A stretch of DNA of 64,000 bases from an uncultured Porphyromonadaceae bacterium (GTDB lineage Bacteria; Bacteroidota; Bacteroidia; Bacteroidales; Muribaculaceae): the NCBI GenBank assembly GCA_947175645.1, contig CAMWNP010000005.1, positions 43,761-107,760 of the forward strand, in the 5' to 3' direction. Of this stretch, positions 23,703-50,775 are shown piece by piece. Position 1 is the stretch's first letter. Each line of letters opens with the position of its first letter. The notes under the pieces are model-generated. The model was not told the DNA's origin. It made no database searches and saw only the letters and a list, made by a program, of their open reading frames with translations. Both the position numbers and the translations under genes were made by a program.

Positions 23703-23710
23703 TAATTTTG
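23703..23710 (+). promoter_or_regulatory. -7 promoter box without a conventional downstream gene
   Basis: TAATTTTG is an exact TAnnTTTG. The nearest upstream TTTG is at 23675-23678, a spacer of 24, longer than usual. Transcription would run into a short ORF and then a terminator-like hairpin. Confidence 0.5.
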
Positions 23711-23723
23711 CAACGTGTTTTTC

Positions 23724-23792
23724 ATGGTATTAGATTTAAGGTTAACTAAGATTGGTTGTCGAGAGACAATCAATTTTTATTTTTACCGGTAA
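23724..23792 (+). other. 22-codon micro-ORF overlapping a terminator-like hairpin
   Basis: An ATG opens a 22-residue frame that begins MVLDLRLTKIGCRE and ends at TAA 23790-23792. The hairpin at 23750-23775 lies inside the frame. This resembles a leader peptide plus attenuator or a small regulatory RNA, but a chance frame is possible. No ribosome-binding site is visible, which is normal in this phylum. Confidence 0.3.
23750..23785 (+). terminator. Intrinsic terminator-like hairpin with GAGA loop
   Basis: GATTGGTTGTC (23750-23760), a GAGA tetraloop, and GACAATCAATT (23765-23775) form an 11-bp stem with two G-T pairs, followed by a T-rich tail. About 50-60 nt of RNA would lie between the -7 box and the terminator. 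Confidence 0.55.
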
Positions 23793-44888: not shown

Positions 44889-44920
44889 TTTGGAGATTCA
44901 AACAAAAAGCGATAATTTTG
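44889..44920 (+). promoter_or_regulatory. Perfect consensus promoter of the queF leader RNA
   Basis: TTTG at 44889-44892, exactly 20 bases, then TAATTTTG at 44913-44920. Transcription should begin near 44925-44930, about 265 bases before queF. Confidence 0.85.
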
Positions 44921-44924
44921 TGTT

Positions 44925-45175
44925 ATTAAAAGCAAGAGAGCACAACGGATACCACATCAAAGTTGATTGGGAAACTCATCAAATTTTTCTGAAATACCGA
45001 GACAAGCGTAGCCTTTCAATGGCGGGCCTCGCTCCCTTAGGGGATGGTGCCGCAAGGCAACCCGGAGGATTACAAAGAAGGTGAGCACTCAAATCCTGTC
45101 TATCGGAGTTTCATCGCATCCTTTGATGTGGCTCTTATAACGGAGACTGCCTTTTTGCGGCGGTCTCCTTTCTTG
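44925..45175 (+). ncRNA. Structured leader RNA or small RNA upstream of queF-queC, family not recognised
   Basis: A region of about 250 nt with its own consensus promoter and an intrinsic terminator. The ends pair: 44952-44962 (CCACATCAAAG) is the exact complement of 45121-45131, extended by AAGAG 44934-44938 with CTCTT 45132-45136. Inside, the loop of a small hairpin (stem TTGAT/ATCAA, 44964-44982) holds GAAACTC, complementary to GAGTTTC at 45106-45112, giving a possible pseudoknot; CCGAGACA (44997-45004) pairs with 45097-45106 around a two-base bulge. A GCAA-tetraloop hairpin lies at 45048-45059. The layout suggests a riboswitch or attenuator for the queuosine genes. I do not recognise it as a known preQ1 class. 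Confidence 0.6.
45142..45175 (+). terminator. Intrinsic terminator just before queF
   Basis: GGAGACTGCC (45142-45151) and GGCGGTCTCC (45159-45168) form a 10-bp stem with one G-T pair, followed by TTTCTTGTT. It ends about 20 bases before the queF ATG, the position expected for an expression platform. Confidence 0.7.
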
Positions 45176-45194
45176 TTACCCTATACGAATAATT

Positions 45195-45683
45195 ATGTCA
45201 AGAACCGATCAGCAATTGGAGGGTGTGACGCTTCTGGGCGACACCCGTGTGAAATATCCCGCGGAGTATGATCCGGGGATTCTGGAGACTTTCGTAAACA
45301 AGCATCCCGACAATGAGTATGTTGTCAGTTTCACTTGTCCGGAGTTCACTTCGCTTTGTCCGAAAACGGGTCAGCCGGATTTTGCGCGTATCATCATCAG
45401 TTATATTCCCCGGGAGCGGATGGTTGAGAGCAAGAGTCTGAAATTGTATCTTTTCAGTTTCAGGAATCATGGTGACTTTCATGAGGATTGCATCAATATA
45501 ATAATGAAGGATCTGGTGGCGCTGATGGACCCGAAGTATCTGGAGGTGCTGGGTCTGTTCACTCCGCGCGGCGGCATAGCCATCTATCCGTTCGCCAACT
45601 ATGGTGACGGGGAGCATCAGGCGATGGTGCAGCAGCGCCGCCTGCAGGCCTTCGAGTACGGAATTAAATCGCAGATGAAATGA
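45195..45683 (+). CDS. queF: NADPH-dependent preQ0 reductase
   Basis: A 162-residue enzyme that reduces preQ0 to preQ1 in queuosine synthesis. The active-site Cys is in [17 protein letters not shown], and the NADPH-binding QueF motif is [15 protein letters not shown]. The length fits the short (unimodular) type. It overlaps queC by four bases. It sits behind a long structured leader with an intrinsic terminator. Confidence 0.96.
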
Positions 45684-46315
45684 AGGATGCAGTTTTGATT
45701 TTGTCGGGAGGGATGGATTCCACCACACTCCTCTATGATTATCTGGACCGTGTGGCACTGGCGGTGACGTTCAACTACGGTTCAAACCACAATGCACGCG
45801 AAATTGAGTGCGCACGCTATCATTGCGAGCGTCTGGGCGTGGAGCATCTGGTGATAGATCTCGCCTTCATGGGTGAATATTTCCGCAGTTCGCTGCTTGA
45901 AGGGGCTGATGCGATTCCTGAGGGGAACTATGATGACGAGAACATGAGGTCGACCGTGGTCCCGTTCCGTAACGGCATCATGCTGTCAGTGGCGGCGGGG
46001 CTGACTGAGGACCGCGGGCTGAAATATGTGATGATGGCTAATCATGGGGGTGACCACGCGGTGTATCCTGACTGCCGTCCGGAGTTTGCCCGGGCGATGT
46101 CTGCGGCTATCGCTGCGGGAACATACGACGGGGTGGAACTTCTTGCTCCGTACACTGACCTGACCAAGGGTGAGATAGCCTGCCGTGGTGTGAAGGCGGG
46201 GGTGGATTATTCGCGTACCTACAGTTGCTATAAAGGGGGCGCGGAGCCGTGCGGCAAGTGTGGCACATGCCGTGAGCGCGCCGAGGCACTGGCTTTTGCC
46301 GGCATTAAGGAATGA
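45680..46315 (+). CDS. queC: 7-cyano-7-deazaguanine (preQ0) synthase
   Basis: A 211-residue ATP-dependent enzyme that converts carboxydeazaguanine and ammonia to preQ0, the step before QueF. The PP-loop is [14 protein letters not shown]. The C-terminal zinc-binding Cys are in [20 protein letters not shown]. Its ATG overlaps the queF stop. The gene ends one base before the stop of the convergent glycosyltransferase, with no space for a terminator. queD and queE are not nearby. Confidence 0.96.
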
Positions 46316-47522: not shown

Positions 47523-47635
47523 GTGAAAAATATTTGAATGGAATATAATAAAATGCAATGTTCTTACGTTAGTTTCTAAGGTTGCCGTGCGGACTGGTCC
47601 GTGCGTGCCCCGTAAACCGTGTTATTTATCGCATT

Positions 47636-48439
47636 ATGAGAATAAAGAGATTTTTACCCCTGATGCTCCTCTCTCTGGCGCTGGCGAGTTGCACTACGAG
47701 CCGGTCCACACTCACATATTTTGATAATCATGAAACATTGATCGACTCGGCATATACGGTAGGCGACTACAATGTGAGGATTGTGCCGGATGATGAACTG
47801 GGCATATATGTTTCCTCGCTCAATCCGGCTGCTACGATTTATTATAATATGCCGGTGTCAGACCAGACGGTGCGCGGCGAGCAGCAGGTGAGCGCGGTTC
47901 CGCGTCTGCAGACCTATATTGTTGATTCCAAGGGAGATATTAATTTTCCGGTGCTCGGGCGGATCCATGTGAAGGGTATGACTACGGAAGAACTGGCGGC
48001 ATATCTGGCCGGACGTATCGGCGAGGATGTGGTTGATCCCACGGTCCGTGTGGAACTGATGAATTTTAACATCAATGTGATGGGTGAGGTCCGTCAGCCG
48101 GGAAGGATAAAGGTTCAGAACGAGCGTGTGAGCATTCTTGACGCGCTGGCGATGGCTGGCGACATGACGGAGTATGGCCGGCGTGAGAATGTGGTCCTGA
48201 TCCGTGAGGAGAACGGCAAGCGCACGGTCCACCGGTTGAATCTCAATGATGTCAGTGTTCTGGATTCACCTTATTTCTATCTTTGTCAGAACGATGTGGT
48301 TTATGTTGAGCCGAACGACATACGTCAGGAAAACTCAAAATACAATCAGAACAATTCTTATAAGATTTCGGTTGTGTCGACTATTGTGAGTGCGGCGTCG
48401 GTGATTGCGTCGCTTGTGATTGCGCTGACCGTGAAGTAA
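47636..48439 (+). CDS. Polysaccharide export outer-membrane lipoprotein (Wza-like)
   Basis: A 267-residue lipoprotein. The start at 47636 (MRIKRFLPLMLLSLALASC) gives a signal peptide ending in lipobox ALASC. The poly-export domain spans about 50-150 (DDELGIYVSSLNPAATIYYN, DSKGDINFPVLGRIHVKGMT), followed by an SLBB domain (VMGEVRQPGRIKVQNERVSI). A C-terminal hydrophobic stretch (VVSTIVSAASVIASLVIALT) would cross a membrane. It forms the channel through which capsule or exopolysaccharide leaves, working with the Wzc-like kinase 32 bases downstream. Confidence 0.92.
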   Translation: MRIKRFLPLMLLSLALASCTTSRSTLTYFDNHETLIDSAYTVGDYNVRIVPDDELGIYVSSLNPAATIYYNMPVSDQTVRGEQQVSAVPRLQTYIVDSKGDINFPVLGRIHVKGMTTEELAAYLAGRIGEDVVDPTVRVELMNFNINVMGEVRQPGRIKVQNERVSILDALAMAGDMTEYGRRENVVLIREENGKRTVHRLNLNDVSVLDSPYFYLCQNDVVYVEPNDIRQENSKYNQNNSYKISVVSTIVSAASVIASLVIALTVK

Positions 48440-48471
48440 TCTTAAACCTTGAACAGACACATTATATTATA

Positions 48472-50775
48472 ATGGAAAAGAAATTAAGCAATAACGATTT
48501 TTTCGATTTGCGCGGAACTCTCAATAAGTGGATGTCGAAGTGGTATTGGTTTGCCATTTCGGCATTTGTGTGTGTATCGCTCGTGTTTGTGTACACAAAG
48601 ATCAAGAAGCCTATTTATCTTGTGCAGGCCGATGTGCTTATCACGCCGGATGACGGGGGGAGCATCTCACCTCTGGGCGACCTGGGTCAGTTGTTCGGCA
48701 ACAGCGGTTACGTGCAGGATGAACTCTACGTGATCAGTGCGCACTCGGTCAACAAGGAGGTGGCGCGCCGGCTCAATCTGCATAAGGTCCACAGGGAGAA
48801 AGAGTTCATTCTGAGCGACTTCAAGTATGATGACTTCCAGGTTGACGTTTACAGCGAGGGGAGTGTGGCCGACACCCTCAGGATGGCTCTTCTGTTCAAG
48901 GTGAAGGTCAACAAGAAAGGGAAGGTGAGCGTAGAGGTCAAGGATGCGCTCAAGAATGAACTGGCTGATGTCACATCGGAGAGTTTCCCTGTTACGGTTG
49001 ACACCAAGTACGGCAAATTCGTTGTTGACAAAACAAAATATTTCAAGGCGGGCGAGGATCTGAAAACGAATATAGTGTTCATGGGCTATGACGCCCAGGC
49101 GGAGAATCTGTCAAGCGACCTGGACATCTATATCGCCGACCGTAAGTCAAATGTGATAAAACTGGGCATCGAGACGCAGAACATTGAGTACGGCAAGGAT
49201 ATCCTGAACGGTATCATAGCCATCTACAATGAGCGCGGGGTTGAGGAACGGGCGCTGAAGGCTCGTCAGACTCTTGAATTCATTGATGAGCGTCTGGCAA
49301 TGATTTCATCGGATCTCTCGGAGAGCGAATCGGATGTAGAGAAATATAAGAAGGAGAAAGGTATAGTGGATGTCGGTGCCGAAGCGGCATATCAGACGGG
49401 CAAGCGTGGTTCTGCCGAGGCGAAACTTGTGGAGGCGGAAACCCAACTTGACATTCTGAAGATGACCAAGGAGTTCCTGTCGAATCCCGGCAATCAGTAT
49501 GATCTTATCCCTACGTCGGTTGCCAATGAGGCACTGCAGGGAATAATCACCCGGTATAACGAGATGATCATGGCGCGCATCAATCTTCTGAACACGGCCA
49601 AGGAGTCGAACATCTCGGTTCAGCAACTGAACCAGCGTATAGGGGTGGTTCGCGGAAATATCATGGAAACTCTGGAGCGTACGCTTGATCAGCAGAGGCT
49701 GATTGTTTCCGACATACGCCGTCAACTGGGCGGAGCCAAGGGTGTGCTGGCCGGTGTGCCCACGCAGGAGAAGCAGTATCGCTCGCTTCTGCGTCAGCAA
49801 AGCGTGAAGGAGCAACTTTATCTGTTCCTGCTTCAGCGCCGTGAGGAAACCGCCATGCTGATAGCCAACTCCACTCCCAAGGCGATCATTGTGGACGAGG
49901 CATACGCGCAGCAGGAACCTCTGGGCATGAAGCGTTCCATGAAACTGTTCCTTGCGTTTCTTTTCGGACTGCTCATACCGGTGTTCATCTTCTGGCTGAT
50001 GGATCTGCTGAAGGACAAGTTCGGCACCACCGAGGAACTGCGCAAGCACACCGCGCTGCCTATTCTGGGAGAAATCTCGGTTGACCGCCGTGGCGATGCC
50101 CTTGCGGTCAAGGAGGGTGGCAGCAGCACCACAGCGGAACTGTTCCGCCTGATGCGCTCACAGTTGCAGTTCCTGATGCAGAATCCGGAGGACAAGGTGG
50201 TCATGGTCACGTCAACAATTCCGGGTGAGGGAAAATCATTCATCTCAATCAATCTCGCAGCCAGTCTGGCCATAGCCAAGAAGCGTGTGATACTCGTGGG
50301 TATGGACATCCGCAAGCCTCGTCTGGCCCAATATTTAGGTCTGCCTCCAACCAAGGGGCTGACGGAGTTTCTGGCTGATCCGGCCGTGACGGTGAAGGAT
50401 ATAATTCTTCCTGCTTCAGGCCAGATGAAGTTCGATGTGATCAGCGCGGGTCCTGTTCCTCCCAATCCTGCGGAACTGCTGCTCTCGGACAGGGTTGACG
50501 AACTGTTTGATGTTCTTCGCCGCGAGTATGACTACGTCATCATTGACTCCGCTCCCGTGGGTGTGATAAGCGACAGTTTCAATATTGTCAGGATAACTGA
50601 TGTCACAATCTTCGTGACACGTGCCAACCACACCAAGTTCTCTGACGTGAAATATATGAACCGTGTTGCCGAGGATCACCGCCTGAAGAATGTTTCCGTG
50701 GTTCTGAACGGAACAAAGGCACGTCAGGGCTACGGCTACGGCTACGGCGAGAAGAGGAAAAAAAAGAGAAAGTAA
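48472..50775 (+). CDS. Wzc-like polysaccharide co-polymerase and tyrosine autokinase
   Basis: A 767-residue inner-membrane protein that controls chain length and export. It has a Wzz domain with first helix near residues 26-46, a long coiled coil (about 270-450), and a second helix near 483-503. The cytoplasmic BY-kinase domain from about 560 has Walker A STIPGEGKSFISINLA, Walker A' ILVGMDIRKPRLAQYLG, and Walker B VIIDSAPVGVISD. The C-terminal tail is Tyr-rich and basic (GYGYGYGEKRKKKRK), the usual site of autophosphorylation. No separate phosphatase (Wzb) is adjacent. Confidence 0.94.
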   Translation: MEKKLSNNDFFDLRGTLNKWMSKWYWFAISAFVCVSLVFVYTKIKKPIYLVQADVLITPDDGGSISPLGDLGQLFGNSGYVQDELYVISAHSVNKEVARRLNLHKVHREKEFILSDFKYDDFQVDVYSEGSVADTLRMALLFKVKVNKKGKVSVEVKDALKNELADVTSESFPVTVDTKYGKFVVDKTKYFKAGEDLKTNIVFMGYDAQAENLSSDLDIYIADRKSNVIKLGIETQNIEYGKDILNGIIAIYNERGVEERALKARQTLEFIDERLAMISSDLSESESDVEKYKKEKGIVDVGAEAAYQTGKRGSAEAKLVEAETQLDILKMTKEFLSNPGNQYDLIPTSVANEALQGIITRYNEMIMARINLLNTAKESNISVQQLNQRIGVVRGNIMETLERTLDQQRLIVSDIRRQLGGAKGVLAGVPTQEKQYRSLLRQQSVKEQLYLFLLQRREETAMLIANSTPKAIIVDEAYAQQEPLGMKRSMKLFLAFLFGLLIPVFIFWLMDLLKDKFGTTEELRKHTALPILGEISVDRRGDALAVKEGGSSTTAELFRLMRSQLQFLMQNPEDKVVMVTSTIPGEGKSFISINLAASLAIAKKRVILVGMDIRKPRLAQYLGLPPTKGLTEFLADPAVTVKDIILPASGQMKFDVISAGPVPPNPAELLLSDRVDELFDVLRREYDYVIIDSAPVGVISDSFNIVRITDVTIFVTRANHTKFSDVKYMNRVAEDHRLKNVSVVLNGTKARQGYGYGYGEKRKKKRK

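Follow-up and report, generated by a model that had tools for sequence, protein, structure and literature searches.

6S RNA sequesters the housekeeping RNA polymerase and frees it again through the synthesis of product RNAs, and in the standard form of the molecule the central bubble is open. According to the available text of PMC12005410, the polymerases copy the product RNAs from the 6S RNA itself, thereby reversing the block. For Bacteroides thetaiotaomicron a 6S RNA together with two classes of product RNA was detected by dRNA-seq (PMC7366714), and the accessible part of this article does not name the Rfam family RF01693 for it. RF01693 (Bacteroidales-1) carries the Rfam label '6S-Bacteroidales RNA suggested'; in the 2010 discovery table, as far as PMC2864571 is accessible, both the cis-regulatory and the riboswitch column hold a question mark for Bacteroidales-1. 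Neither a closing stem of Bacteroidales-1 nor a link of this RNA to queF appeared among the literature matches listed, which come mainly from the open literature, or in the accessible portions of PMC2864571, PMC7366714, PMC9723704, PMC7641849 and PMC7160235. A single further article, PMC4342826 on a Bacillus, mentions both 6S RNA and queF.

Here we describe an RNA locus directly upstream of queF in a 64,000-nt stretch of DNA (the window). The sequence-only reading had proposed an unrecognised, queuosine-sensing leader and, as a fallback, a free-standing small RNA. With high confidence we assign the locus to the Bacteroidales form of 6S RNA, having its own sigma-A-type promoter and terminator, probably acting as a polymerase-binding promoter mimic and being released by product-RNA synthesis. 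The observations of the earlier reading were partly confirmed and its interpretation partly supported, in that the fallback stood and the headline did not.

Family assignment and gene boundaries

Positions 44950-45139 of the window (+ strand) matched the Rfam model of RF01693 with 127.1 bits and an E-value of 6.9e-23, more than twice the curated gathering score of 60, and the alignment ran end to end over model positions 1-179 of 179. In the genome-wide model search this queF-upstream locus was the single RF01693 match of its own genome, and the general 6S model, RF00013, gave no match there. As judged from the sequence, the RNA is a member of an already catalogued family and not a new class, and RF01693 is very probably the version of 6S RNA used by this bacterial group. 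To call the RNA unrecognised was wrong: the Rfam search which the earlier reading had proposed as a check returned a known RNA family with a suggested 6S identity, the very outcome it had set against its own proposal.

The RNA is preceded by a promoter at 44889-44920 (+ strand), whose -33 box TTTG (44889-44892) and -7 box TAATTTTG (44913-44920) match the Bacteroidetes -33/-7 consensus as quoted in the available text of PMC7366714. It is followed by an intrinsic terminator at 45142-45175 (+ strand), composed of a hairpin (45142-45168) with a 10-bp stem and a 7-nt loop and of a T-rich tail. Both elements had been recognised correctly from the letters. Judged from these two elements, the transcript would run from about 44926 to about 45175 (+ strand). 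None of 200 dinucleotide shuffles of the segment 44927-45177, which includes the terminator, folded as stably as the segment itself (z -4.1).

For comparison with relatives, an alignment of 135 loci (134 distinct sequences) was used, made up of 110 loci from the same family and 25 further loci from the same order. Going by the earlier reading and by the RNA family itself, these are presumably the Muribaculaceae and the Bacteroidales. The family rows represent 110 of the 111 matching genomes, the weakest (G018) being left out. The order rows represent 25 of 33 further matching genomes (L139-L163; one below the cut-off, one cut by a contig end); of the remaining ones, L164 and L165 were kept outside the model rebuilt from this alignment and were found by it, and six had no locus. 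An exact TAnnTTTG was present within 130 nt upstream of the RNA in 126 of 135 loci versus about 9 of 135 in base-shuffled upstream DNA, and a terminator-like hairpin followed the RNA in 111 of 134 loci versus 28 of 134 after base shuffling, where both shuffles preserved base composition only. The orientation of the neighbours was mixed. Among mechanically called ORFs of 80 aa or more, the first one downstream lay on the same strand in 73 of 127 loci and on the opposite strand in 53, while one locus had no such ORF; eight loci with less than 700 nt downstream were excluded from this count and retained in the queF count of 135 given below. The locus consequently has the 6S-class feature of a free-standing gene, whose promoter and terminator are independent of its neighbours. 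This is also where the fallback proved right, given the RF01693 match, the one match each in 111 of 120 same-family genomes and the lack of a tie to queF.

A second small-RNA locus was found elsewhere in the window. Positions 23715-23783 (+ strand) matched RF04319 (BTncRNA_FopS, a Bacteroidetes paralogous sRNA family) with 76.1 bits at a cut-off of 56; a TAATTTTG box lies just upstream at 23703-23710, and no ORF of at least 120 aa overlaps the match.

Closing stem and long-range helix

The 11-bp closing stem P1, formed by 44952-44962 with 45121-45131 (+ strand), was paired in 96.9% of the cells of the 135-locus alignment, and each of its 11 pairs was changed on both sides in at least one sequence, amounting to 121 such cells. 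Neither the percentage paired nor the covariation score was reached by any of 500 shuffles, and the count of 11 changed pairs was reached by one; upon sliding one strand by 1-3 columns the pairing fell to 38-43%. The exact complementarity of the RNA ends noticed earlier is therefore borne out by covariation at every pair. A stem joining the ends is a feature of the 6S class, and it was also found in all 20 of the 6S-Flavo loci described below.

Inside P1, the strand GAAACUC (44971-44977, + strand), which is also the putative template of the product RNA, pairs with GAGUUUC (45106-45112, + strand) to form helix P2. This helix was paired in 98.2% of the cells (shuffled mean 97.0) with seven compensatory cells at two pairs; two compensatory pairs were reached by 4 of 500 shuffles and seven cells by none. 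Three of the seven pairs are invariant and one other departs only through nine broken cells. Versions slid by +1 to +3 also gave two pairs and six cells changed on both sides, yet were only 33-51% paired. The 135-locus alignment by itself thus speaks for P2 mostly through near-invariance. A test outside the alignment was provided by the 6S-Flavo loci, 19 of 20 of which contain exact AAACUC and GAGUUU. At the next pair of the helix most Bacteroidales have G-C, and 18 of those 19 loci have T-A (16) or C-G (2) instead. Support for P2 is thinner than for P1 but independent, and we draw the helix as nested inside P1, as does RNAalifold.

The earlier proposal of a pseudoknot was upheld in one of its two parts. 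The long-range pairing of GAAACUC with GAGUUUC stands, but the local hairpin needed for a pseudoknot (44963-44967 with 44978-44982) does not: it was paired in 72.1% of the cells, a value reached by 171 of 500 shuffles. With this hairpin no better than shuffles and the long-range helix nested in P1, the pseudoknot was rejected. GAAAU, a competing partner for the GAGUUUC strand, was discarded as well, since it leaves more broken pairs than GAAACUC does.

RNAalifold independently drew 10 of the 11 P1 pairs and 6 of the 7 P2 pairs, and for 28 of its 35 pairs, among them inner ones, both partners are changed in one or more sequences. The conserved inner stems of RF01693 are hence found here too, with compensatory changes. 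In the Rfam alignment these stems surround the conserved AAUGGCGGGCC and GGAUUACAAAG elements at 45006-45086 (+ strand), where RNAalifold likewise places pairs with changes on both sides. The GCAA-loop hairpin TGCC-GCAA-GGCA, read from the sequence at 45048-45059 (+ strand), is present as had been described, in a region that differs between relatives both in length and in sequence.

Relation to 6S-Flavo and distribution

The rebuilt covariance model, made solely from the alignment of same-order loci, found all 20 of the fetched 6S-Flavo (RF01685) loci at full length, in the place and on the strand given by RF01685, with rough E-values between 1.5e-14 and 7.1e-7. In the same locus search two weak matches occurred elsewhere (E 0.013 and 0.077), and none of five RF00013 loci, one of them over the cut-off, was found. 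All 20 6S-Flavo loci have an end-joining stem of 11-14 bp, whereas stems of at least 11 bp arose in 23 of 4000 shuffles; this stem test took the match bounds of the rebuilt model and hence leans towards the model. Furthermore, the matches to RF01693 and RF01685 coincided in three genomes; RF01693 stayed under its cut-off in each of these, and RF01685 exceeded its own in one. Two of these three, aligned to both models, have AAACUCA and GGAGUUU in common, and one also GGAUUACA. On these grounds Bacteroidales-1 and 6S-Flavo look like one RNA. Homology to a recognised 6S family is thereby given through 6S-Flavo, while the results for RF00013 point against it.

Within the same family, RF01693 gave one match per genome in 111 of 120 genomes, the own genome included, and was present in 92 of the 93 genomes with at least 90% completeness and at most 5% contamination. 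Across the order, RF01693 matched 36 of 149 genomes (27 over the cut-off) and the rebuilt model 53 of 149. In a phylum sample of 198 genomes RF01693 matched 4, RF01685 21, the rebuilt model 20 and RF00013 24 (one over the cut-off); most of these genomes had no match with any of the four models, and no genome of this sample with an RF00013 match also had one to RF01693 or RF01685, a point in favour of the 6S assignment. At genome scale the rebuilt model missed seven phylum genomes matched by RF01685, six of which were recovered by direct search of their loci, the seventh having no locus; two weak RF01693 matches of the order (G421 and G447) were missed as well. Because loci missed genome-wide were recovered directly, the genome-scale counts are limited by the first filter of the search. 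Outside its family only a minority of genomes yielded the RNA, which counts against the 6S assignment; the filter loses some of them, and elsewhere the RNA may be truly absent.

In four genomes of one family (f9) of the same class (G195, G230, G265 and G313; loci L180, L176, L183 and L182) the rebuilt model located the RNA with E-values from 5e-10 to 7e-6, and a fifth genome, G267 (L184), gave a weak match (E 5e-4). In that sample neither RF01693 nor RF01685 matched any of the five.

A pattern search yielded 52 matches in named genomes, and all 13 loci checked, B. fragilis among them, carry the full RNA according to the rebuilt model. B. thetaiotaomicron was not among these 52; we infer that its 6S RNA is the RF01693 RNA.

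Proposed mechanism, competing explanations and known systems

In our reading the RNA is transcribed from its own sigma-A-type promoter, ends at its own terminator and folds into a long structure shut by the 11-bp stem. In analogy to 6S RNA, it would probably mimic a promoter and in this way bind the housekeeping RNA polymerase, and for release the polymerase would copy a short product RNA off the GAAACUC strand. Just 3' of this strand lies CAAATTTT (44980-44987, + strand), which in reverse complement is similar to the -7 box TAnnTTTG and is a possible promoter mimic on the template strand. Over RNA positions 1-182, both strands and 135 loci this site had the highest mean match (4.46 of 6; runner-up sites 4.17 and 4.13) and matched at five or all six positions in 68 of 135 loci, a score only moderately above that of other sites and suggestive only. 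A -7 mimic at this position would place the start of the product RNA near (GA)GUUUCCCAAUC, and the predicted product RNAs, antisense to GAUUGGGAAACUC, would start near GAGUUUC or AGUUUC.

The geometry is no clean fit to 6S RNA. The -7-like site lies on the expected strand with its moderate score, but GAAACUC and GAGUUUC pair across the bubble, so that in the consensus structure the proposed template is base-paired, whereas the standard bubble is open. Either the RNA has two conformers and P2 belongs to one of them, or a different mechanism is at work. As a speculation, to which we give a rather low probability, GAGUUUC could be a built-in copy of the product-RNA start that is displaced by the growing product; P2 would then serve as a release lever setting the ease of polymerase escape, and RF01693 and RF01685 would represent a single RNA used throughout the phylum, based on this switch together with a mimic of the phylum's own -7 box.

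Downstream of the RNA and outside of it lie queF (preQ1 synthase; 45195-45683, + strand; TIGR03139, 170 bits, cut-off 86.9) and queC (7-cyano-7-deazaguanine synthase; 45680-46315, + strand; TIGR00364, 172.6 bits, cut-off 150.3). Further downstream, 47582-50775 contains a polysaccharide export-type ORF, which scored below the NCBIfam cut-offs, and a second ORF, presumably of the chain-length/tyrosine-kinase type from its sequence motifs. Across the 135 loci queF was found next to the RNA in three (L001, L006 and L019), all of the window's genus. In three other loci of this genus with 1,500 nt of flank no queF match was found, and a further one, L071, has only 218 nt downstream, too short for a queF call.

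A 6S RNA which in this genus additionally drives queF-queC by read-through of its terminator, the genes lacking a promoter of their own, is compatible with the 6S assignment, and we regard it as possible but doubtful. Read-through is conceivable because no exact -7 box precedes queF in the three loci: from 70 nt before the RNA end to the queF start TAnnTTTG was absent in 3 of 3, although L006 has two sites with one mismatch in this interval. A precedent is given by the 6S RNA gene of E. coli and its downstream gene, as far as described in the accessible text of PMC7641849. Against this stand the terminator-like hairpins between RNA and queF, the number of only three loci and the scope of the promoter search, which was confined to TAnnTTTG. 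In the window the interval 45070-45194 has no exact -7 box, as in L006 and L019, and queF-queC may rely on the 6S-type promoter.

A housekeeping small RNA with another function, miscalled 6S, appears improbable. It would agree with the missing RF00013 match in the own genome and with the paired template strand; the homology to 6S-Flavo speaks against it, as does the 6S RNA that, together with its product RNAs, is described from Bacteroides in the available part of PMC7366714. Still far less probable is a cis-regulatory leader or riboswitch of queF-queC sensing a queuosine precursor. The RNA does share its strand with queF, which follows it directly after a terminator, but a conserved position upstream of queuosine genes, expected of such a riboswitch, is lacking: only 3 of 135 loci were found to have queF adjacent, in 53 of 127 the first ORF downstream is reversed, and the RNA is highly conserved also where queF or queC were not found nearby. 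The queF riboswitch was rejected on its position, and the regulation suspected in the sequence-only reading was not borne out. A protein-coding stretch is the least credible explanation and was rejected, as the ORFs 44890-45084 and 45044-45271 exist mechanically but the three forward frames are fully open in just 49, 8 and 23 of 135 relatives, lengths spread evenly over the three frames and base pairs covary.

With the 6S assignment preferred, the locus no longer misleads as a candidate for a new queuosine riboswitch. The family itself is known and catalogued in Rfam; the added value lies in a revised, better-supported secondary structure of Bacteroidales-1, to which P1 and the conserved long-range helix P2 are added, and in its union with 6S-Flavo, argued from sequence and structure, by which the product-RNA start becomes testable in Bacteroides.

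Among the known systems, preQ1 riboswitches resemble this RNA in its placement upstream of a queuosine gene in its own genome and differ in that this position is not conserved and no preQ1 family occurred among the Rfam matches even at E-values up to 5. With 6S/SsrS RNA (RF00013) the RNA shares the free-standing gene and the closing stem, and probably the role of polymerase mimic; it differs in the missing model match in its own genome and in a central bubble not clearly seen as open. 6S-Flavo (RF01685) shares AAACUCA and GGAGUUU, co-located matches, the closing stem and exact P2 motifs in 19 of 20 loci, while its model has 108 positions and another inner sequence and Rfam assigns RF01693 and RF01685 no shared clan. 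RF01693 itself matches over its full length, yet its Rfam structure line for this hit omits both the closing stem and the GAAACUC/GAGUUUC helix, the two elements supported here.
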